Shown in pieces: positions 9,120 to 62,326 of a DNA stretch of 64,000 nucleotides (within the stretch, counting starts at the first letter, position 1; each line of letters opens with the position of its first letter). A program made the translations under genes and the position numbers. The notes beneath the pieces are model-generated. The model worked only from the letters and a program-made list of their open reading frames with translations. It made no database searches and was not told the DNA's origin. The DNA is from Streptomyces pseudovenezuelae. Lineage in GTDB: Bacteria > Actinomycetota > Actinomycetes > Streptomycetales > Streptomycetaceae. The stretch lies in NCBI RefSeq assembly GCF_029892565.1, contig NZ_JARXVH010000008.1, positions 62,001-126,000 on the forward strand. The letters are read 5' to 3'.

Positions 9120-9250
9120 GCGTGCTGTTCGTCCGCCCGGACATCGGCGCGGTCTCGCTGGCCACCGTCTTCGGGCTGTTCAGCATCTTCTACGGCGTCT
9201 CGGCGGTCTTCGGCTCGTTCGATCTGCGGAGCCGTCGTACGCAGGCGAGC
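9119..9250 (+). pseudogene. Fragment of a HdeD-like (DUF308) membrane protein
   Basis: The plus strand reads VLFVRPDIGAVSLATVF followed by GLFSIFYGVSAVFGSFDLRSR. This resembles the last transmembrane hairpin of HdeD/DUF308 acid-resistance membrane proteins (RPD...LFGLF...YG). No start, no ribosome site and no upstream two thirds of the protein are present, and it begins exactly where the PucR fragment ends. It runs into the G/C homopolymer block. Confidence 0.5.
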
Positions 9251-9323
9251 CGATCCGGTCAGCGTCTGAGCGGCATGCACTCGTACCGCGGCGGCCGGGG
9301 AGCGCCGACGCGGTACGTACCCC

Positions 9324-9539
9324 GGCGGGGGGGGGGGGGCGCGGGGGCCCCCCCCCCCCCCCCGGCCGGGGGGGGGGGGGGCGGGGCCCCCGCCCCCCCC
9401 CCCCCCCCCCCCCCCGGGGGGGGGGGCCCGGGGGGTTGGGGGGGGGGGGGGCCCGCCCGGGGGGGGGGGGGGGGGGCCCGCGGGGGGGGGGGGCCCCGCG
9501 GGGGGGGGGGGGGCCCGGGCCCCCCCCCCCCCGCCGCGG
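9324..9539. repeat. 216-bp block of almost pure G and C homopolymers
   Basis: Runs of 10 to more than 20 identical G or C residues alternate through the block; the only other bases are two Ts at 9436-9437. Both strands stay open in several frames only because of this composition. Such sequence is atypical even for Streptomyces and is most simply read as a failed base-calling or gap-closing region between two contigs. Confidence 0.85.
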
Positions 9540-9542
9540 TCG

Positions 9543-9926
9543 TCAGAGGTCGGCTTCGGCCGTCCCGCTCTGCGAGCCCGCCGCGTCCTGCAGTTGGCGT
9601 CGCTCCTGCCGCCCCTCGTCGTGGGCGGCATCGTGCTGAGCGAGCAGGGACAGCAGCTCGGCCACCGTCAGCCCCGCCTCGGCGGGGTGGCGCAGGATGG
9701 TCCCCTTCTCGATGCGGTACGAGTTGGAGCGGCCCTGGCGTGTGTGGGTGAGATAGCCGCCGTCCTCCAGATCGGAAACGATCTTCTGGACGGCACGTTC
9801 GGTGAGTCGGCAGCGCGCGGCGATGTCGCGGATGCGCGTGGTGGGATCCTCGGCGATCGCGGCCAGCACGCGGGCGTGGTTGGTGAGAAACGTCCAACCG
9901 GTATGTGATTCCGGTACTCCAGACAT
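9543..9926 (-). CDS. Winged-helix transcriptional regulator, MarR-like
   Basis: 127 residues from ATG 9926. Residues 5-85 form a winged helix: TNHARVLAAIAEDPTTRIRDIAARCRLTERAVQKIVSDLEDGGYL, then THTRQGRSNSYRIE as the wing. The C-terminus is a charged tail (DAAHDEGRQERRQ). A start nine codons upstream (9953) is also possible; neither has a good ribosome site. The small size and fold fit IclR/MarR-like ArsR-group repressors common in Streptomyces. Its stop is right beside the homopolymer block, so the 3' end could be affected by the assembly problem there. Confidence 0.65.
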   Translation of the reverse strand: MSGVPESHTGWTFLTNHARVLAAIAEDPTTRIRDIAARCRLTERAVQKIVSDLEDGGYLTHTRQGRSNSYRIEKGTILRHPAEAGLTVAELLSLLAQHDAAHDEGRQERRQLQDAAGSQSGTAEADL

Positions 9927-47562: not shown

Positions 47563-47621
47563 ACACGGCTCCTGCTGTGCACGTGAGAAGGCGTCCTTCG
47601 CCTCGATCGAAAGTTAGATCA

Positions 47622-47641
47622 AACGGTCGGTACAATCAATG
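47622..47641 (+). promoter_or_regulatory. 20-bp promoter/operator element shared with 62227-62246
   Basis: AACGGTCGGTACAATCAATG is identical, base for base, to the minus strand at 62227-62246. The upstream bases TAGATCA here and TAGACCT there extend the likeness. TACAAT fits a -10 box 164 bp before the monooxygenase start, but no matching -35 is seen. It lies in the gap between the decarboxylase-family operon and the monooxygenase gene. Confidence 0.65.
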
Positions 47642-47732
47642 GCTGGAGCCGACCGGCACGCAAAACCTTCTCCACCGCACCCACCGACCCCATTGCCGGG
47701 GCCGACCCCCTCATCTACTCTCGACCTGAATA

Positions 47733-47750
47733 TTCGACCGACCGGTCGAA
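47733..47750. promoter_or_regulatory. Dyad containing the 12-mer ACCGACCGGTCG
   Basis: TTCGACCGACCGGTCGAA is a TTCGACC/GGTCGAA dyad, 50 bp before the monooxygenase start and 110 bp (centre to centre) from the 47622 element. The internal 12-mer at 47737-47748 recurs at 57773 and 62120. Confidence 0.6.
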
Positions 47751-50311: not shown

Positions 50312-50399
50312 TACGTCCTCCAGACTTGTTTCGACCACACAGTCTATTGCCCCTCTTGAGATTAAGGGAGAGGCTGCCCATCACAGCCTGAAAGATTTG

Positions 50400-50416
50400 T
50401 TGACCGAGCGGTCCAA
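50400..50416. promoter_or_regulatory. Palindromic operator-like site GACCG-AG-CGGTC
   Basis: TTGACCGAGCGGTCCAA lies in the divergent gap between the SnoaL pair and the cyclase-family gene, about 57 bp before the latter. The ACCG/CGGT arms are the same as those in the elements at 47737, 57773 and 62120. Confidence 0.55.
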
Positions 50417-50472
50417 TCTCAATAGCATGCTGACGGCTGTCAACGGGGACCGTCGCACGAGGAGGCAACATC

Positions 50473-51586: not shown

Positions 51587-53590
51587 TCAGACGGCCGCGA
51601 TCCGCCGCACCGTCTCGGCGATCGTGTCCCGGGAGGGCAGCCACAGCCGCTCCAGCGACGGCGCGTACGGGGCCGGGACCGAGGGCGGGGCGACGCGGGT
51701 GACCGGGGCGTCGAGGTGCCAGAAGCCCTCGTCGACGGCGAGAGCGGACAGTTCCGCGCCGACGCCGAAGTCGCGTACGGCCTCATGCGCGATGACCAGG
51801 CGGTTGGTCTTGGCGAGGGAGGCGAGGACGGTCTCGCGGTCCAGCGGGGCGATGGTGCGCAGGTCGACCACCTCGACGCTGACGCCTTCGCCGGCGAGGA
51901 GTTCGGCGGCGGCGAGGCAGTCCTGGACCATGCGTGACCAGGAGACCAGGGTGATGTCGGTGCCCTCGCGGACCACCTTCGCGCGGCCCAGCGGAACGAG
52001 GTGGTCGGCCGGCGGGCGGGGGGCCTTGAGGCCGTACTGGAGGCGGTTCTCGACGAAGACGACCGGGTTGGGGTCCTGGATGGCGGCGCGCAGCAGGCCG
52101 TAGGTGTCGGCCGGGTTGGAGGGCATGACCACGGTCAGCCCGGGGATGTGGGCCAGCAGTGCCTCCAGGCTCTGGGAGTGCTGACTGCCGGAGGAGCGGC
52201 CCGCGCCGAACTGGGTGCGCACGACGAGGGGCAGCGAGGCCCGGCCGCCGGTCATGAAGCGAAGCTTGGCCGCCTGGTTGAGCAGCATGTCGAGGCAGAC
52301 GCCGATGAAGTCCATGTACATGATCTCGACCACCGGCTTCATGCCGGCCATGGCCGCCCCGACCGCTGTACCGAGGATCGCGCTCTCGCTGATCGGGGTG
52401 TCGCGGACCCGGCCGGGGAAGGCCTGCGCGAGGCCGCGGGTGAGGCCGAATACGTTGCCGCCCGCGCCGACGTCGATGCCCGCGACGAAGACGGTCGGGT
52501 CCGCCGTCAACTCGTGCTCCAGGGCGAGGCGTACGGCGTCCATGGTGCGGAAGACCTCCCCGTCGGCCGGGGCGGGCTCGGGCACGGCCGCGCGCGGGGC
52601 CGAGACGAAGTCGTACAGCGTCTCCGGGGCGGGCTCGGGAAGGGCGCGCGCCCACTGGACCGCCGCCTCGATCTCCTTGTCGATCTCCTCGTCGACGGCG
52701 TCGGCGAGGGCGGTGGGCACACCCGCGTCCGCGAGGTGGCGGCGGGCGAGGAGCAGGGGGTCGCGTTCCTTGGCCCCGGCGACCTCCTCGGGGGTGCGGT
52801 AGCGCTCGGGGTCGCCCTCGTAGTGGCCGTGCCAGCGGTAGGTCTCGGCCTCCAGCAGGACCGGGCCGCCGCCCCTGCGCAGGCGTTCCACCACGTCCGT
52901 CATCATTCCGGCGACGGCCAGGACGTCGTTGCCGTCGACGTGCGCGTAGCCGATGCCGTATCCGGCGGCGCGGGCGGAGAGCGGGGCGCGGTGCTGTTCG
53001 GAGGCGGGCGAGAACTCCGAGTAGTGGTTGTTCTCGCAGAGGAAGACGACGGGCAGGTCCCATACGGCGGCCAGGTTGACGGCCTCGTGGAACATTCCCT
53101 GGGCGACCGCGCCGTCGCCGAAGAACGCGACGACGACGTCGCCCGCCCCGCGCAGCTTGGCGGCGGTGGCCACCCCGGCGGCTATCGGCAGCCCCGCGCC
53201 GACGATGCCGTTGGCGCCGTAGATGCCGAGGCCCGGGTCGGCGATGTGCATGGAGCCGCCGCGGCCGTGGCAGGTGCCCGCCTCCCGGCCCATCAGCTCG
53301 GCCATCATCGGCGCCGGGTCCAGGCCCTTGGCCAGGACGTGGCCGTGGCCGCGGTGGGTGGAGGTGATGCCGTCGCGTTCGCCCAGCGGCCAGCAGGCGC
53401 CCACGGCGGTGGCCTCCTGGCCGATCGACAGATGGAGGAAGCCGGGGATCTCCGTCGCCTTGTACAGCTCGGACGCCCGCTCCTCGAAGCGGCGGATCCG
53501 GCGCATCCGCCGGTACATTTCCAGGAGTTGGTCCGCGTGGGCGGATCGGGTCCCGACGCCCGCGTCGGTGGACTGCGGTGCCTGAGTCAT
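51587..53590 (-). CDS. Fused E1 alpha-beta thiamine-diphosphate dehydrogenase component
   Basis: 667 residues. Residues 1-325 are E1-alpha (FLHLSIGQEATAVGACWPLGERD, STHRGHGHVLAKG, and the ThDP site GDGAVAQGMFHEAVNLAAVWDLPVVFLCENN). Residues 345-667 are E1-beta (DAVRLALEHELTADPTVFVAGIDV, GTAVGAAMAGMKPVVEIMYMDFIG, SQSLEALLAHIPGLTVVMPS). It decarboxylates a 2-oxoacid or acetoin; the usual E2 and E3 genes are absent nearby, so it must borrow them. The promoter carries a 21-bp element shared with the acyl-CoA ligase promoter. Leftward, divergent from the TetR gene. Confidence 0.92.
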   Translation of the reverse strand: MTQAPQSTDAGVGTRSAHADQLLEMYRRMRRIRRFEERASELYKATEIPGFLHLSIGQEATAVGACWPLGERDGITSTHRGHGHVLAKGLDPAPMMAELMGREAGTCHGRGGSMHIADPGLGIYGANGIVGAGLPIAAGVATAAKLRGAGDVVVAFFGDGAVAQGMFHEAVNLAAVWDLPVVFLCENNHYSEFSPASEQHRAPLSARAAGYGIGYAHVDGNDVLAVAGMMTDVVERLRRGGGPVLLEAETYRWHGHYEGDPERYRTPEEVAGAKERDPLLLARRHLADAGVPTALADAVDEEIDKEIEAAVQWARALPEPAPETLYDFVSAPRAAVPEPAPADGEVFRTMDAVRLALEHELTADPTVFVAGIDVGAGGNVFGLTRGLAQAFPGRVRDTPISESAILGTAVGAAMAGMKPVVEIMYMDFIGVCLDMLLNQAAKLRFMTGGRASLPLVVRTQFGAGRSSGSQHSQSLEALLAHIPGLTVVMPSNPADTYGLLRAAIQDPNPVVFVENRLQYGLKAPRPPADHLVPLGRAKVVREGTDITLVSWSRMVQDCLAAAELLAGEGVSVEVVDLRTIAPLDRETVLASLAKTNRLVIAHEAVRDFGVGAELSALAVDEGFWHLDAPVTRVAPPSVPAPYAPSLERLWLPSRDTIAETVRRIAAV

Positions 53591-53646
53591 GCGCGTCCTC
53601 GCAATGTTCGCGCCAAGGGCGCTGCCCCGCGCCGTCTGGCTCGCCT

Positions 53647-53667
53647 TTTAATGTACCGTCTGGTCTA
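53647..53667 (-). promoter_or_regulatory. Operator/promoter element of the E1 gene, shared with 57737-57757
   Basis: On the minus strand this reads TAGACCA-GAC-GGTACATTAAA, 57 bp before the E1 start. It matches the element at 57737 in 17 of 21 positions, with the same orientation and almost the same distance to a start. TACATT may be a -10 box. Confidence 0.6.
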
Positions 53668-53784
53668 GCAAACAGAAGTGACGACGTCCCGGGGTCCGCT
53701 GTCCCCCCGGGCGCCCCCGCGGCGCCCGGTGCGGTTCCTGGGTTGGGTCGGTTCGACACGTCGTCTCGTCAGGGGAGAGATGCG

Positions 53785-54492
53785 ATGCCACGACCGCCGG
53801 GTCATGGACCGGACTTCGAGGTCCGCCGCCAGAAGATCATCGATACGGCCGCCGAGCTGTTCGCCCGCCAGGGCTACGCGGCGACGTCCGTCAACGACCT
53901 GGGCCGTGCGGTGGGGCTCGCCAAGGGAGCGCTGTACTACTACATCGGCTCCAAGGAGAACCTGCTGATCGAGATCCAGGGGCGGGTGATGAGCCCGCTG
54001 CTCTCCCGCACCCGGCAGATCGCCGGCCTCGACACGGATCCGCTGCTCAGACTGCGGCTGCTGTCCGAGTCGCTGCTGACGATCATCTTCCACCGCCTCG
54101 ACCACATCTGGGTCTACGAGCACGACTACCGCAGCCTCACCGGTCCGGAGCTGCAGACCCTGCTGGGCCAGCGCTCGGAGTTCGAGCAGCTGATCACCGG
54201 CCTGCTGACGGAGGCCGCGGAGCAGGGCAGCCTCCGGGTGGCCGAACCGCGCCTGGCGACCCTGCAGTTCCTCAATCTGCACAACCACACCTACCAGTGG
54301 GTGAAGCCGGGCGGCAGGTGGGATCCGGCGTACCTGTCCCGCGAGTACTGCGCGACCCTGTTCCGCGGCTTCGGCGCGGCCGACGCCGACCTGGCGGAGA
54401 CCGAGGAGCGGGCGACGGCGTTCAAGCGCGACCGCGCGGAGCTGCCGCTCGACCCCGAGGCGGTCTGGGAGCCGGCCCCGGTCGGGCGCTGA
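53785..54492 (+). CDS. TetR-family regulator, candidate regulator of the catabolic island
   Basis: 235 residues from ATG 53785 behind GGGGAG. HTH FEVRRQKIIDTAAELFARQGYAATSVNDLGRAVGLAKGALYYYIGSKENLL (about residues 10-60). The C-terminal domain (LNLHNHTYQWVKPGGRWDPAYLSREYCATLFRGF) is like TetR_C_24/KstR2-type regulators of CoA-thioester catabolism. It is the only regulator between 40 and 64 kb, and the divergent region with the E1 gene contains one of the repeated elements. Binding an acyl-CoA intermediate is plausible but not shown. Confidence 0.88.
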   Translation: MPRPPGHGPDFEVRRQKIIDTAAELFARQGYAATSVNDLGRAVGLAKGALYYYIGSKENLLIEIQGRVMSPLLSRTRQIAGLDTDPLLRLRLLSESLLTIIFHRLDHIWVYEHDYRSLTGPELQTLLGQRSEFEQLITGLLTEAAEQGSLRVAEPRLATLQFLNLHNHTYQWVKPGGRWDPAYLSREYCATLFRGFGAADADLAETEERATAFKRDRAELPLDPEAVWEPAPVGR

Positions 54493-54550
54493 TCCCGTCC
54501 CGCGGTGCGCTCCCGCGCACCGCGGGCCGCGGCCGTACGCCGGGGCCGGC

Positions 54551-55705
54551 TCACCCCTGCCTCAGCAGGGCTCGCGCGATGACGTTGCGCTGGATCTCGT
54601 TGGTGCCCTCGCCGATCTCCAGGATCTTCGCGTCGGCGTAGAAGCGGGAGATCTCCGACTCCCGCATGTAGCCGTAGCCGCCGTGGATCTGGACCGCCTG
54701 GGAGGCGGCGCGGTTGGCGACCTCGGAGGTGTACACCTTTGCCATGGCGGCCTCGGTGCTGTACGGGCGGCCCTGGTCGGCGAGCCAGGCGGCACGGTAG
54801 ACCATCCAGCGGGCGGCCTCGACCTCGGTGCCGATGTCGGCGATCTTGTGGGCGACCGCCTGGAAGTCCGCGAGCGGGCGGCCGAACTGGTGGCGCTCCG
54901 CGGCGTGTTTGACCGCGAGGGCCAGCGCGGCCCTGGCCAGGGAGAGGCCCAGGGCGGCCACGCTGATCCGGCCCTTGTCCAGCACCGACAGGAACTGACG
55001 CAGTCCGTTGCCCTCCTCGCCGATCAGATGGTCGTCGGGGATCCAGCAGTCGTCGAAGACCAGCTCCCGGGTGTCCATGGCGTGCCAGCCGAGCTTCTTC
55101 AGCTTGGGGCCGCAGCTGTAGCCGGGGGCGCCGGTCTCGACGTAGAAGGTCGCGTACCGCTTGCGTCCGTCGGCGTCCCGGCCGGTCACGGCGAGCAGGG
55201 TGACGCCCTGGCTGATGTCGGTACCGGCGTTGGTGATGAACATCTTCGTGCCGTTGAGCACCCAACCGCCGTCCGCCCGACGGGCGGTGGTGGCGATGCC
55301 GGCCGCGTCGGAGCCGGCGTCCGGCTCGGTCAGGCCGAAGGCGCCGATCGCCTCGCCGCGGGCAAGCGGGGCCAGCCAGCGCCGCTTCTGCGCGTCGTTG
55401 CCGTAGGTGAGCAGCGGCAGGGTGGCGATGGTCGAGTGGGCGTTCCAGGAGGAGGCCACCGACTGGTCGGCCGCGCCGAGTTCCTCCATCACCGCGACGT
55501 AGGACACCATGTCGGAGCCCGCGCCGTCGTACTCCTCGGGCACCAGCATGCCCATCAGGCCGAGTTCGCCGAGCTTGGTGAAGACCTGCGTCGGGAAGTG
55601 CTCGTTCTCGGACCACTCGGCGGCGTGCGGGGCGATCTCCTTGGCCGCGAACTCACGCACCATCTCCTGCAGGTCCCGGGTCTCCTCCGGCAGGTCGAAA
55701 TCCAT
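54551..55705 (-). CDS. Acyl-CoA dehydrogenase
   Basis: 384 residues. FAD/substrate region AFGLTEPDAGSDAAGI, NGTKMFITNAG, YSCGPKLKKLGWHAMDTRELVFDDCWIP, QFGRPLADFQAVAHKIADI, and the end QIHGGYGYMRESEISRFYADAKILEIGEGTNEIQRNVIAR, where the Glu in GEGT is the catalytic base. It makes the first oxidation of a beta-oxidation cycle and needs electron transfer flavoprotein. Its start lies 1 bp after the stop of the alcohol dehydrogenase gene, so the two are translationally linked. Confidence 0.95.
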   Translation of the reverse strand: MDFDLPEETRDLQEMVREFAAKEIAPHAAEWSENEHFPTQVFTKLGELGLMGMLVPEEYDGAGSDMVSYVAVMEELGAADQSVASSWNAHSTIATLPLLTYGNDAQKRRWLAPLARGEAIGAFGLTEPDAGSDAAGIATTARRADGGWVLNGTKMFITNAGTDISQGVTLLAVTGRDADGRKRYATFYVETGAPGYSCGPKLKKLGWHAMDTRELVFDDCWIPDDHLIGEEGNGLRQFLSVLDKGRISVAALGLSLARAALALAVKHAAERHQFGRPLADFQAVAHKIADIGTEVEAARWMVYRAAWLADQGRPYSTEAAMAKVYTSEVANRAASQAVQIHGGYGYMRESEISRFYADAKILEIGEGTNEIQRNVIARALLRQG

Positions 55706-55706
55706 G

Positions 55707-56765
55707 TCACAGTCCCTTCGGGGTCAGCAGAACCTTGAGATGGCGGGCCCGGTCGGCGGCCAGGTCCGCGAGGACCCCGGCTCCTTCCGAGAGCGGGAAA
55801 CGGCCGGTGACCAGGGGCGCGGCATCCAGACGCCCGGTGCTCATGAGGTCGATCACGCGGGCGATGTCGTGCTGGTAGCCGAGCGTGCCGAGCACGGCAC
55901 GCTCGTAGAAGACGAGCTGCCCCATGTCGAACTCGACCTTCCCGTGGCCGACTCCCGCCAGGACGACCCGTCCGCCACGGCGCACGGTGGCGACGGCCTG
56001 CGCGGCGAGGGCGGGCACACCGGTCGCGTCGATCACGACGTCCGGTCCGATCCGGCCGGTGCGCACGAAGACCTCGCGGCGTACGTCGGTCTCGCGCGGG
56101 TCGAACGCCTCGGTGACGCCCAGGTCCAGGAGCCGTTCCCGGCGTTCCTTGAGCGGTTCGCTGACGTAGAGCCCGGCGGCGCCGGCCAGTCGTGCCGCGA
56201 GGATCACGGCGAAGCCGATGGGGCCGCCGCCGACGACCAGGACGTTGTCACCCGGGCGCACTCCGCCGCGGGTGACGGCGTGCAGGCCCACGGCGAGGGG
56301 TTCGGCGACGGCCGCCATCTCGTCGCTGACGTTGTCGGGCAGGCGGGTCAGTCCCGCGAGGGGGACGGTGACGCGCTCGGCGAAGGCACCGGGCGAGGCG
56401 AGGCCGACGGAACCGCTCTTCGGGCAGATGTGGTACTCGCCGCGCGCGCACCAGTAGCAGGCCCCGCAGCGCCACACGGGGTCCGCGGTCACCCGGTCGC
56501 CGACCGCGATGCCCGGCACCTCCGCGCCCAACGCGAGGACGGTGCCGCTGAGTTCATGGCCCAGGGCGAGCGGCGGAACGGCTCCGGTGAGGGGGTGCGG
56601 CTCGGTGCGGATCATGTGCGGGCCTTCGAGGTACTCGTGCAGGTCGGTGCCGCACACTCCGCACCAGGCCACCTCCACGACCGCCTCGTGCGGCCTCGGG
56701 TCGGGCGGGTCGGGCAGTTCCTCCAACCGCAGATCACGCGCACCGTGCCAGCGCAACGCCTTCAT
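55707..56765 (-). CDS. Zinc-dependent alcohol dehydrogenase (butanediol dehydrogenase-like)
   Basis: 352 residues. Catalytic zinc ligands in WCGVCGTDLHEY and LGHELSGTV, structural zinc cysteines in CGACYWCARGEYHIC, cofactor fold NVLVVGGGPIGFAVILAARLAG. The closest recognisable group is (R,R)-butanediol/polyol dehydrogenase. ATG 56765 follows GGTGGAG. It is the middle gene of the leftward enoyl-CoA hydratase, alcohol dehydrogenase, acyl-CoA dehydrogenase operon. Confidence 0.92.
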   Translation of the reverse strand: MKALRWHGARDLRLEELPDPPDPRPHEAVVEVAWCGVCGTDLHEYLEGPHMIRTEPHPLTGAVPPLALGHELSGTVLALGAEVPGIAVGDRVTADPVWRCGACYWCARGEYHICPKSGSVGLASPGAFAERVTVPLAGLTRLPDNVSDEMAAVAEPLAVGLHAVTRGGVRPGDNVLVVGGGPIGFAVILAARLAGAAGLYVSEPLKERRERLLDLGVTEAFDPRETDVRREVFVRTGRIGPDVVIDATGVPALAAQAVATVRRGGRVVLAGVGHGKVEFDMGQLVFYERAVLGTLGYQHDIARVIDLMSTGRLDAAPLVTGRFPLSEGAGVLADLAADRARHLKVLLTPKGL

Positions 56766-56843
56766 CGTCTCCACCCCTCTCCTGTCGTACGGCTCCCGTG
56801 CCGTACGGCTTCTGCGCAACCGGGCCGAGCTGGAAGCCCGGCC

Positions 56844-57632
56844 CTAGCCGTCCCGGTCCTCGCCGGTGAACCGCGCCTTTCCCGGGCCGTGTTCGAGGAA
56901 GGAGCGAATGCCGTGAGCGGCGTCCGCGGTGCCGAAAACCCCGGTGAACAGGGACCGTTCGAGCGCAAGACCGGCGGACAGGCCCCCGTCCGCTCCGTGG
57001 TCGACCGCATCCTTGATCGCCTCCAGTGCGGCCGGCGGCCCCGCGGCGAGCCGGCGGGCATAGCCGAGCGCGGTGTCGAGGACCGCGCCCGGTGGGACCA
57101 CCTCGTCGACGAGCCCGAGGCGCAACGCCTCCTCGGCGCCGACCCGTCGGCCGGTCATCAGCAGGTTCTTCGCGCGCGCCGGGCCGATCAGCCGGACCAG
57201 GCGCTGGGTGCCGCCCGAGCCGGGCATGATGCCCAGCTGCACCTCGGGCTGACCGAGGACCGCGTCCTCGGCCGCCACCCGGTAGTCGGCGGCGAGCGCC
57301 AGCTCCAGGCCGCCGCCGAGCGCGTACCCGGTGATCGCCGCGACGACCGGCATGGGGAGCCGGGCGATCTCGTCGAAGGTCCGCTGCAACGCCCGGTTCC
57401 AGCCCCGCACTTCCTCGGAGCCCATCGCGGCCAGCGCCTTGATGTCCGCGCCGGCCGCGAAGAGCCGCTCCCCGCCGTGGAGCACCACGGCACGTACGCC
57501 GCGGGCGTCCGCCAGGTCCCGCGCGCACGCGGCGAGTTCGACGCGCTGCCGGTCGTCGAACGCGTTCATGGGCGGATGGTCGAGCCGGACCGTGGTGACG
57601 GGTCCGTCGGGGTCGAGGCGGATACGTGGCAC
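56844..57632 (-). CDS. Enoyl-CoA hydratase/isomerase (crotonase family)
   Basis: 262 residues from GTG 57632, five bases after GAGGAGGG. HPPMNAFDDRQRVEL, AAGADIKAL (oxyanion hole), ITGYALGGGLELALAADYRV, and LGQPEVQLGIMPGSGGTQRLVRLIG with the catalytic Glu. It adds water to enoyl-CoA esters. Divergent from the acyl-CoA ligase gene; the 186-bp gap holds two shared operator elements, so both directions are probably co-controlled. Confidence 0.94.
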   Translation of the reverse strand: MPRIRLDPDGPVTTVRLDHPPMNAFDDRQRVELAACARDLADARGVRAVVLHGGERLFAAGADIKALAAMGSEEVRGWNRALQRTFDEIARLPMPVVAAITGYALGGGLELALAADYRVAAEDAVLGQPEVQLGIMPGSGGTQRLVRLIGPARAKNLLMTGRRVGAEEALRLGLVDEVVPPGAVLDTALGYARRLAAGPPAALEAIKDAVDHGADGGLSAGLALERSLFTGVFGTADAAHGIRSFLEHGPGKARFTGEDRDG

Positions 57633-57736
57633 GAGGGCCCTCCTCGTCTTGGGCCGGTCCGCTGAAGAGCGGCATCGCCGGTGGTCGGACGGCTTGTCGC
57701 TCGGCACGGGTCGTCGTAGAGTGCTGAAAAGTTTTA

Positions 57737-57757
57737 TAGACCAAGAGGTACACTAAA
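57737..57757 (+). promoter_or_regulatory. Operator/promoter element of the ligase gene, shared with 53647-53667
   Basis: TAGACCA-AGA-GGTACACTAAA, 62 bp before the ligase start. It is the partner of the element before the E1 gene. TACACT may be a -10 box; no clear -35. Confidence 0.6.
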
Positions 57758-57772
57758 TCTTGGGAGCGAGCA

Positions 57773-57784
57773 ACCGACCGGTCG
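57773..57784. promoter_or_regulatory. Second copy of the 12-mer ACCGACCGGTCG
   Basis: Identical to 47737-47748 and 62120-62131. It lies 35 bp before the ligase start, downstream of the 57737 element, where a bound repressor would block transcription. Confidence 0.6.
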
Positions 57785-57818
57785 GGACATTCCCGGCCAC
57801 CGAGCCGAGAGAGTTGCC

Positions 57819-59357
57819 GTGCACAATTTCGCGAGCATCCTCGATTACCACCTGTCCCAGCGACCGGACGCCGTGGTGATCACCCAGGCAAAGCAGCGCC
57901 TGACCGTGCGGGAGCTGCACGAGCGGGTGAACCGACTGGCCGCCGGGTTGGCCGAGTTGGGGGTAGGGCGCGGTGACGTGGTGGGGCTGCTGCTCTACAA
58001 CCGACCCGAATTCCTGGAACTGCTGTACGCGGCGGGCCGTCTCGGCGCGGTATTCCTGCCGCTGAACTACCGGCTGTCCGAAGAGGAATGGCAGTACATC
58101 CTGGGTCACGCCGAGGCCAGGGTCCTGGTGACCGAGCCGGAGTTCACGCGCGCGGCGGACCGGATCGCGGCGAACGTGCCCGGTCTGGAGCACCGGATCC
58201 AGGTCGGCGGGGCGGCGACCGCCCGGCCGTGGACCGGCTACGAGGAGTTGCTCGCCCGGCACCCCGGCGCCCGCGTCGAGCCCGTCGAGGCCGGGCCGGA
58301 CGACCTCCAGCGCCTGATGTACACCTCCGGCACCACGGCCCGCCCCAAGGGCGTGTGCATCACCCATGGGAACGTGCAGGCCAAGAACCTCGCCCACATC
58401 GTCCACTTCGGCCTGACCTCGGCGGACACCACGCTGGTGTGCGGCCCGCTCTACCACGTGGGCGGGCTCGACATGCCCGCCCTCGGGGTCCTGTACGCGG
58501 GCGGAAGCGTGGTCCTGCAAAGGAAGTTCGACCCCGAGGGCGTCCTGCACGCGATCGAGGAGCACGGCGTCACCAACGTGTGGCTGGCGCCCGCGATGGT
58601 CAACGCGGTCCTCCAGGTCCCGGACCGCGACAGCTACGACACCGCCTCCGTGCGTTTCGTGCTGGGGGGCGGCGAGAAGACGCCCGAGCCGGTGCTGCGG
58701 CGGATCATGAACGCGTTCCCCAACGCCTGGTTCGCCGACGCCTACGGGCTGACCGAGACCGTGTCGGGCGACACCTTCCTCGACCGCGCGCATGCGCTGA
58801 CCAAGCTGGGGTCGGTGGGCCGCCCGGTGCCGCACACACGCGTGCGGATCGTCGACGACACCGGCAAGGAGGTGCCGGCGGGCGAGTTGGGCGAGATCAC
58901 CCTGCGCGGCCCCAAGGTCTTCGCCGGGTACTGGCGCGACGAGAAGGCCACCGCGGCGGCCCTCAAGGACGGTTGGTTCCACACCGGGGACATCGGACAC
59001 GTCGACGAGGACGGCTTCCTGCACGTCGACGACCGCAAGAAGGACATGATCGTCTCGGGCGGCGAGAACATCGCGACCCCGGAGGTCGAACGGGTTCTGT
59101 ACGAGCACCCCGCCGTGCTGGAGGCGGCGGTGGTCGGCCTGACGCATCCCCGGTGGGGCGAAGTGCCGCGCGCCTTCGTGGTGTTGCGACCGGAGACGGA
59201 CGCTGGAGCGGCGGAGCTGCGGGAGTTCTGCCGGGCCCGCCTCGCGAAGTTCAAGGTGCCCGCCCGGATCGACTTCGTCGCCGAACTGCCCCGTACACCC
59301 TCGGGCAAGGTCCTCAAGCGGACCCTGCGCGACCTGCCCGCGGAGGACCGGTCTTGA
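57819..59357 (+). CDS. AMP-dependent acyl-CoA synthetase/ligase
   Basis: 512 residues from GTG 57819. P-loop YTSGTTARPKGV, ADAYGLTET (A5), FHTGDIGHVDEDGFLHVDDRKKDMIVSGGENIATPEVE (A7-A8), and the catalytic lysine in PRTPSGKVLKR. It activates a free carboxylic acid to its CoA ester, probably the ring-opened acid. The last four bases overlap a TTG start of the next SDR gene. Two operator-like elements lie upstream. Confidence 0.94.
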   Translation: MHNFASILDYHLSQRPDAVVITQAKQRLTVRELHERVNRLAAGLAELGVGRGDVVGLLLYNRPEFLELLYAAGRLGAVFLPLNYRLSEEEWQYILGHAEARVLVTEPEFTRAADRIAANVPGLEHRIQVGGAATARPWTGYEELLARHPGARVEPVEAGPDDLQRLMYTSGTTARPKGVCITHGNVQAKNLAHIVHFGLTSADTTLVCGPLYHVGGLDMPALGVLYAGGSVVLQRKFDPEGVLHAIEEHGVTNVWLAPAMVNAVLQVPDRDSYDTASVRFVLGGGEKTPEPVLRRIMNAFPNAWFADAYGLTETVSGDTFLDRAHALTKLGSVGRPVPHTRVRIVDDTGKEVPAGELGEITLRGPKVFAGYWRDEKATAAALKDGWFHTGDIGHVDEDGFLHVDDRKKDMIVSGGENIATPEVERVLYEHPAVLEAAVVGLTHPRWGEVPRAFVVLRPETDAGAAELREFCRARLAKFKVPARIDFVAELPRTPSGKVLKRTLRDLPAEDRS

Positions 59358-60124
59358 GCAGTGTGAACAGCGAACTGCGCCTGGACCGCAGGACGGTGTG
59401 GGTGACCGGGGCCGGAAAGGGACTCGGGCGGGCGATCGCCGTCGCTCTCTCGCAGGCCGGGGCGACCGTGGCGGTGACCGCCCGTACCGCCACGGACCTG
59501 GAGCGGCTGGAGTCCGAACTCGCCGCGCACGGCGGCAAGGTGCTCGTCGTCCCCGGGTCGGTGGCGGACTCCGCCGCCGTGCGGGACATGGTCGAGCGGA
59601 TCACGGGGTGGGCGGGCCGTCTGGACGCGGTCGTCAACTGCGCCGGGATCAGCCCGCACTTCACCCGCAGCGAGAAGGTCACCGACCAGGACTGGCAGCA
59701 GGTGATCGACGTCAACCTGCAAGGCACCTTCTACTGTTGCCGCGAGGCCGGCAAGGTGATGCTGGAACAGCGCTCGGGTTCGATCGTCAACGTCTCGTCC
59801 GTGCACGCCCGTACCGGCTTCGAGCGGATCGCCGCCTACGCCGCCAGCAAGGGCGGGGTCGAGGCCCTCACCCGGGCGCTGGCCGTGGAGTGGGCGGATC
59901 GCGGTGTGCGGGTCAACTCCCTTGCTCCCGGCTACTTCCAGACCGACCTCAGCTCCGGGCTGCTGGACAGCCGCTGGGGCGAGCGGATCGTGCGCGGCAC
60001 TCCCCTGGGCCGGGTGGGCGACGCCGACGAGCTGGGCGGGGCCGCGGTGTTCCTCGCCTCGGACGCGTCCCGGTTCGTCACGGGCACGACCCTCACGGTG
60101 GACGGCGGCTGGACGGCCCACTGA
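59354..60124 (+). CDS. SDR-family oxidoreductase, TTG start overlapping the ligase
   Basis: 256 residues from TTG 59354, seven bases behind GGAGG; its TTGA overlaps the ligase stop (translational coupling). A GTG at 59363 is less well placed. Rossmann VWVTGAGKGLGRAIAVALSQAG, NCAGISPHF, NVSSVHARTGFERIAAYAASKGG with the Ser-Tyr-Lys triad, RFVTGTTLTVDGGW. Likely a 3-hydroxyacyl-CoA dehydrogenase in the same pathway. Convergent with the DoxX gene. Confidence 0.9.
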   Translation: MSSVNSELRLDRRTVWVTGAGKGLGRAIAVALSQAGATVAVTARTATDLERLESELAAHGGKVLVVPGSVADSAAVRDMVERITGWAGRLDAVVNCAGISPHFTRSEKVTDQDWQQVIDVNLQGTFYCCREAGKVMLEQRSGSIVNVSSVHARTGFERIAAYAASKGGVEALTRALAVEWADRGVRVNSLAPGYFQTDLSSGLLDSRWGERIVRGTPLGRVGDADELGGAAVFLASDASRFVTGTTLTVDGGWTAH

Positions 60125-62042: not shown

Positions 62043-62119
62043 AGGGCCTGCCTCTCTCCGAACCTCGTCGTTCGCTCCGCCACCGATCGGTTCGGGCACC
62101 GCGCTTCGGCGTTACGTAT

Positions 62120-62131
62120 ACCGACCGGTCG
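62120..62131. promoter_or_regulatory. Third copy of the 12-mer ACCGACCGGTCG
   Basis: Identical to 47737-47748 and 57773-57784. It lies 78 bp before the amidohydrolase start. TTAGGTCTAC follows at 62140-62149 and recurs at 62246-62254 as TTAGGTCTA. Confidence 0.6.
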
Positions 62132-62226
62132 TTCTACGATTAGGTCTACTCCCGCCCGCTCTTCCTCGTCAAGGGGAACGGCGACCGCGGTGCGCGGCGA
62201 GTCGGAGCGATTCCCTCTGCGCGACT

Positions 62227-62246
62227 CATTGATTGTACCGACCGTT
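62227..62246 (-). promoter_or_regulatory. 20-bp promoter/operator element shared with 47622-47641
   Basis: On the minus strand it reads AACGGTCGGTACAATCAATG, preceded by TAGACCT. It points toward the amidohydrolase, 185-205 bp from its start, and lies 80 bp before the MFS gene on the other side. Confidence 0.65.
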
Positions 62247-62326
62247 AGGTCTACGTTACGGCGCACTCCCCCACGCCGCCCTCACGCTCTCCCCACACCC
62301 TCCGACGCACCACGGAAGGCCCCCGT

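Follow-up and report, generated by a model that had tools for sequence, protein, structure and literature searches.

Among the TetR-family regulators described so far, PfmR (TTHB023) of Thermus thermophilus is reported to bind the site TACCGACCGNTNGGTN, both at the gene for PfmR itself and at fatty-acid genes (PMC7022988). BkaR of mycobacteria is presented as an autoregulating TetR protein that recognizes, in the divergent promoter region of its own gene, the 16-bp palindrome GTTA(N)T(N4)A(N)TAAC and controls genes for keto-acid dehydrogenase, acyl-CoA dehydrogenase and carboxylase (PMC3920632). The QacR site is given as 28 bp long (PMC4482099), and binding of the DarR/QacR type is described as that of a dimer of dimers (DarR, PMC10636190). 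AibR (5k7z) is listed as solved with isovaleryl-CoA and operator DNA, and KstR2 (4w97) as a repressor of cholesterol metabolism. Here we analyse a stretch of 64,000 nucleotides from Streptomyces pseudovenezuelae (contig NZ_JARXVH010000008.1, positions 62,001 to 126,000; "the window"), in which two related 21-bp elements lie in a gene cluster, one (e) between tetR and the gene for a fused alpha-beta thiamine-diphosphate E1 dehydrogenase and the other (f) in front of the gene for an acyl-CoA ligase. We consider it very probable that both serve as operators for the PfmR-like TetR repressor that the cluster itself encodes (53785-54492).

The protein encoded by tetR belongs to the TetR family by its domains (PF00440, E 6.9e-16; PF17932, TetR_C_24, E 2.2e-21), and its structure model is all-helical with a mean pLDDT of 81.6. 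Against the NCBIfam TetR equivalogs (SACE_7040, ScbR, FadR and others) the best score was 60.4 bits and did not reach the cut-off of 250. PfmR (3vpr) was the first Foldseek match of the model (E 6e-9) and came second in a sequence search of the PDB (E 1.6e-19). When folds were ranked by Z, RHA5900 (18.4) was followed by DarR, PfmR and KstR2 (17.8-17.9) and then AibR (17.1), which puts PfmR third, but tied (Z 17.8, root-mean-square deviation (rmsd) 3.4, 185 aligned). The ACC-N4-GGT core in the reported PfmR site TACCGACCGNTNGGTN (PMC7022988) equals that of e, f and two further sites of the cluster, B and D. The two proteins differ in that they share only about 29% identity and that PfmR has other target genes; in addition, TAGACC is the preferred half-site here, often in a longer 28-bp frame. 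With BkaR, as described, the system shares the N4 centre and the 16-bp site in its own divergent promoter region (PMC3920632), whereas half-site and gene set are different and the fold ranks lower (6yj2, Z 15.7, rmsd 3.3, 181 aligned). The extended inverted repeat found in Pseudonocardiaceae (see below) has the 28-bp length stated for the QacR site (PMC4482099), and by fold DarR (8suk, Z 17.9, rmsd 3.1, 186 aligned) is one of the nearest structures, but the half-sites of the DarR/QacR type differ from those found here. The TetR regulators AibR (Z 17.1) and KstR2 (Z 17.8) resemble the protein by fold only.

Two elements between divergent genes

A preliminary description of this DNA had placed the two 21-mers at 53647-53667 on the minus strand and at 57737-57757 on the plus strand, and coordinates as well as strands proved correct. 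The same applies to the identity in 17 of 21 positions, which yields the consensus TAGACCA-N3-GGTACA-Y-TAAA with four differing positions, and to the distance of about 60 bp from the genes (56 bp to the E1 start at 53590 and 61 bp to the ligase GTG at 57819). The TAGACC reported to accompany an element at 62246 is also present, on the minus strand at 62248-62253. That the elements lie before the E1 and ligase genes is true for one side; each, however, sits between two divergent genes, so that e also faces tetR and f also faces the enoyl-CoA hydratase (ECH) operon. Element e thus has the arrangement sought for a TetR-family operator, an inverted-repeat-type site between tetR and its divergent neighbour.

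With up to three mismatches to the consensus, the two elements were the only matches in the window, and the mean over 100 dinucleotide shuffles was 0.00. In the whole 11.3-Mb genome they were the only matches to TAGACCNNNNGGTACANTAAA at up to two mismatches, and the reversed control gave none. The relaxed pattern TNGACCNNNNGGTACA found 8 matches genome-wide versus 15 for its reversed control and is thus uninformative; it does not define a regulon beyond the cluster. Within the window, the looser pattern TAGACCNNNNGGTNNA at up to two mismatches gave 72 matches, many of which lie in coding sequence, versus an average of 29 in shuffled DNA. The conserved block reaches 5-6 bp further to the left than the 21-mers (GTTTnn).

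Conservation in Streptomyces and other actinobacteria

Lack of conservation in close relatives had been named beforehand as the observation that would refute the proposed operators. They are conserved within the genus and, in the case of the ligase element, also in other families. Scanning 392 genomes of the same genus (TetR at E<=1e-60, E1 at E<=1e-300, motif with at most one mismatch) gave 15 genomes with the TetR protein, 13 with E1 and 15 with the motif. Motif and TetR occur together in 13 genomes, a co-occurrence that partly reflects co-inheritance of one cluster, the counts being neither independent nor corrected for phylogeny. All 13 E1 genomes have a TetR match (in G224 a 60% paralog) and the motif. 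The ligase element is found in every one of them, with one mismatch in G274, and the tetR/E1 element is exact in the ten genomes that have a divergent tetR-E1 pair; the remaining three, G124, G224 and G274, have E1 behind ACAD and not in divergent orientation to tetR. The two remaining TetR genomes, G158 and G194, carry the element beside tetR only at two mismatches.

A second set comprised 62 named loci from a TetR-alignment scan, mostly of Streptomyces but also of other actinobacterial genera, with some genomes shared with the set of 392. Strict ligase-type elements are present in 32 of these loci and reach Catenulispora (Catenulisporaceae) as well as Thermocrispum, Prauserella and Amycolatopsis (Pseudonocardiaceae). 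Ligase orthologs with 78% identity or more, which had not been selected by motif, all (23/23) carry at least 11 of the 12 core letters within 260 bp upstream; below 78% identity the core was found in that distance for 2 of 20. Permuted patterns scored 0.08%, and the negative genes ACAD (0/40) and SDR (0/36) gave nothing. What directly follows the ligase-type promoter-operator cassette in L099 and L105 is a long gene, in L105 a hydantoinase_A-like one, and the ligase comes only about 6 kb further on, which accounts for the low upstream scores of these two ligases. In both loci regulation is kept while the genes behind the cassette have changed.

The flanks decay around the elements. For the tetR/E1 site (23 E1-linked loci, 16 after dereplication) conservation is 0.97 in the element, 0.97 in the 6 bp directly to its left and 0.49-0.64 in the other flanks; since every E1-linked locus had the element, no locus was lost from this set by selection. 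For the ligase site (33 loci, 24 after dereplication) the value of 0.91 for the element is raised by the fact that the loci were picked by it, whereas the left 6 bp (0.89) were outside the selection; the other flanks gave 0.49-0.75. In nine Pseudonocardiaceae loci the ligase-type element is an almost perfect inverted repeat over 28 bp: 9-10 of its 12 arm positions pair, a value reached by none of the 144 control centres in each locus.

In some loci the gene order around tetR differs. L039 and L041 carry a tetR paralog (60-61%) downstream of E1 and on the same strand; E1 itself follows ECH-ADH-ACAD, and the ligase element is kept. G314 (L027/L031), G235 (L029/L032) and L078 have two close tetR copies, one by E1 and the other by an SDR-like gene, and the element or a variant of it occurs at both copies, the variant in L029 being recognized by eye only, beyond the three-mismatch cut. 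L068 (G013:C35:41420) has an extra one-mismatch element that lies away from the main cluster of its genome; close to it is an 82% homolog of the MFS transporter encoded in the window.

Promoter position, linkage to tetR and competing explanations

Directly upstream of f lies a promoter pattern whose generalized form, TTGTC(G/A)-N17/18-TANAGT, was found 43-49 bp before the strict ligase-type element in 32/32 loci; even the general pair TTGNNN-N16-18-TANNNT occurred in only 152 of 9600 shuffled upstream stretches (1.6%). Judged from these boxes (57694-57722), the predicted start would precede element f by about 8 bp, and the core of f would cover about +8 to +23 of the ligase start.

The linkage to tetR persists where E1 is missing. 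Of the tetR orthologs with 70% identity or more that do not stand beside an intact or cut E1, 7/10 keep the element, and it is for this reason that the TetR at 53785, already named in the preliminary description, is, on sequence grounds, the best candidate regulator of both elements. The divergent gene in six of the seven E1-unlinked copies shares an SDR-like start, and that of L072, when put to Pfam, was an SDR. The E1-facing half, TACATTAAA, is kept in 21/23 E1-linked but only 1/7 unlinked copies (Fisher p 3e-4, without phylogeny correction), with L073 (truncated E1) and the first copy of L078 (E1 cut by the locus edge) counted as linked. Under the prior labelling of E1-linked loci the figures are 19/21 versus 3/9 (p 0.003); L092, L107 and L125 stand outside the test. 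In L073 (around 9156-9896) only the first 247 E1 residues match beside tetR, and the tetR/E1 element is intact.

Could the elements themselves be promoters? Their internal TACATT and TACACT fit TANNNT and might be read as -10 boxes of a common sigma-factor site. The behaviour of TACATTAAA points in the same direction: as it is mostly kept where E1 is present and drifts where E1 is absent, the half that faces E1 may well serve as a -10 box in addition. As an account of both elements, this explanation is nevertheless improbable. A separate promoter pattern precedes all 32 strict ligase-type elements, the last T of the supposed box is a G in the Pseudonocardiaceae copies and in L113 and L119 (TACACG), the conserved part extends beyond the -10 to span the ACC and GGT half-sites, and around 29/30 tetR elements there is no TTGNNN at 16-18 bp from a TANNNT. 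We have mostly rejected the promoter reading on the evidence of the ligase promoter and the tetR elements. Coincidental resemblance, or the remnant of a duplication of intergenic DNA, would fit the mere two copies in the window and the looseness of TetR-type sites. It is already contradicted by conservation and can practically be dismissed: shuffles yield no such pair, the elements are unique in the genome, they persist while their flanks decay and they occur in other families. A regulator of the same cluster other than the TetR at 53785 is unlikely. Such a regulator would explain why the element is missing near some orthologs and paralogs of tetR, and other TetR proteins could use ACC-N4-GGT sites. 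Against it stand the tetR orthologs that retain the element without E1, the co-occurrence of motif and TetR in 13 genomes, the single match to this TetR at E<=1e-60 in its own genome, and the core shared with the reported site of PfmR (PMC7022988), the first Foldseek match.

Several observations do not favour control of both elements by this TetR. The tetR orthologs of L092, L107 and L125 have no element within 260 bp, and several paralogs of 58-63% identity lack it as well. The absence of a TTGNNN-N16-18-TANNNT pair for E1 or tetR around the 29/30 tetR elements also counts here, as does the co-inheritance already mentioned. G053 and G276 have one single-mismatch match each without this TetR. 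Since the reversed pattern matched in 4/392 genomes, two such stray matches are expected; at the corresponding sites of tetR-free genomes (L049, L053) 0/14 cluster proteins were found within these short loci, and we take the sites as chance. The dyad symmetry of the Streptomyces elements is modest, with about 7 of 12 arm positions paired, a level also attained by 105/3456 control centres in the tetR set and 82/4752 in the whole ligase set. Finally, the 12-letter core was found in 0/21 BVMO upstream regions, where the sites differ in the second half (GGTCGA; BVMO, Baeyer-Villiger-like monooxygenase).

Further sites and the proposed regulon

The two elements had been taken for a second conserved operator. 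Conserved they are, but a separate class they are not, because sites at the cyclase and BVMO promoters show the same core, TNNACC-N4-GGTNNA. Exact copies number five in the window, four of them (e, f, B, D) in intergenic DNA of the cluster. The binomial chance of all four cluster copies being intergenic is 6e-5, an enrichment established after the fact, as the core was read off the sites before counting. Six more intergenic places in the cluster, A, C, h and j included, are one letter off the core. With the window included, A and B are each kept in 10/11 loci and C and D each in 9/9, alongside the BVMO promoter pattern in 11/11 and the cyclase promoter pattern in 9/9; D lies across the -35 of the latter. 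Of the 33 loci that have the ligase element, again counting the window, 18 show an exact copy of g, and j was not seen in L041, the only relative aligned there. There are thus seven further operator-like sites with ACC/GGT half-sites (A, B, C, D, g, h, j), of which the first four touch or overlap promoters that can be recognised and are kept in related loci. As read from the DNA, the arrangement of the sites is that of a repressor regulon (Table 1).

Table 1 Genes, promoters and operator-like sites of the cluster (window coordinates)
Feature	Position	Strand	Remarks
tetR, 235 aa	53785..54492	+	TetR_N + TetR_C_24; proposed repressor, including of own promoter region
Fused alpha-beta thiamine-diphosphate E1 dehydrogenase	51587..53590	-	Proposed target of operator e
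Acyl-CoA ligase (AMP-binding)	57819..59357	+	Proposed target of operator f
SDR gene after ligase	59354-60124		
ECH	56844-57632	-	Divergent from ligase, faces operator f
ADH	55707-56765	-	Part of ECH-ADH-ACAD stretch 54551..57632
ACAD	54551-55705	-	Part of ECH-ADH-ACAD stretch
Putative operator e, between tetR and E1	53646..53673	-	Extended 28 bp GTTTGCTAGACCAGACGGTACATTAAAA
Operator e, sub-parts	53647-53667; 53652-53667		21-mer; 16-bp core
Putative operator f, between ECH operon and ligase	57731..57758	+	Extended 28 bp GTTTTATAGACCAAGAGGTACACTAAAT
Operator f, sub-parts	57737-57757; 57737-57752		21-mer; core
Ligase promoter TTGTCG-N17-TAGAGT	57694..57722	+	Directly upstream of operator f
Ligase promoter boxes	57694-57699; 57717-57722		TTGTCG; TAGAGT
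Site A, operator-like	47611..47641	-	In spacer of promoter-like TTGATT-N17-TAACTT before CMD/SDR/ferredoxin reductase/P450 genes
BVMO promoter	47693-47698; 47716-47721		TTGCCG; TACTCT
Putative operator B	47733..47750		TTCGACCGACCGGTCGAA; just after BVMO promoter
Site C, operator-like	50329..50348		TTTCGACC-N4-AGTCTATT; between SnoaL2 and cyclase
Cyclase promoter TTGACC-N17-TAGCAT	50400..50428	+	Overlapped by putative operator D (TTGACC-N4-GGTNNA)
Site g	57773..57785		ACCGACCGGTCGG; ligase leader
Sites h and j	within 62117-62257		ACC/GGT half-sites
Site j	62229..62257	+	TAGACC-N4-GGTC (minus strand) in spacer of promoter-like TTGATT-N17-TACGTT; before MFS gene

The wider cluster also contains genes for a P450, a ferredoxin reductase, SDR, CMD and BVMO proteins, two SnoaL proteins, a cyclase, DoxX, an amidohydrolase and an MFS transporter. 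The models that come closest to the P450 and the BVMO are those of the pentalenolactone pathway, but the scores lie far below the cut-offs of these models, and we therefore do not name a pathway substrate.

The proposal that the E1 gene and the ligase operon are under one regulator is supported by conservation in the genus and, for the ligase element, across families, with binding as the inferred step. As a list of targets it was incomplete, since tetR itself and the divergent ECH-ADH-ACAD operon would have to be included. From what was observed, i.e., the sites, their conservation, their position relative to the conserved promoter pattern, the linkage to tetR and the fold of the protein, we infer binding, repression and an inducer by analogy with known TetR systems. 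TetR would occupy the pseudo-palindrome TNNACC-N4-GGTNNA as a single dimer or, on the 28-bp form, as two dimers. At 53652-53667, between tetR and E1, it would control its own gene and E1, and at 57737-57752 the bound repressor would block the ligase promoter from just downstream together with the divergent ECH-ADH-ACAD genes. Without substrate, TetR would sit on its sites; a metabolite of the pathway, for which a CoA thioester formed by the ligase is the most likely candidate, would release it.

Such a mechanism would be TetR control of the ordinary type and no new kind of gene control. What may be new, as we tentatively suggest with somewhat less than even confidence, is an actinobacterial regulon so far undescribed, in which one TetR serves up to nine sites in a P450/Baeyer-Villiger/CoA-ligase/E1 catabolic cluster and in which the ligase-type cassette, TTGTC(G/A)-N17/18-TANAGT followed by the 28-bp repeat GTTTCGTNNACC-N4-GGTNNACGAAAC, probably for two dimers, has been preserved as one block across families, with changes in the genes downstream of it. 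Literature searches, at the level of titles and the openings of abstracts, found no description of such a regulon or motif. With this analysis a visual match has become a defined, testable operator with a named candidate repressor and several target promoters. The motif can be used to find the same pathway in other actinobacteria, and loci where E1 is gone or sits elsewhere serve as natural experiments on which half of the shared divergent operator serves which gene.

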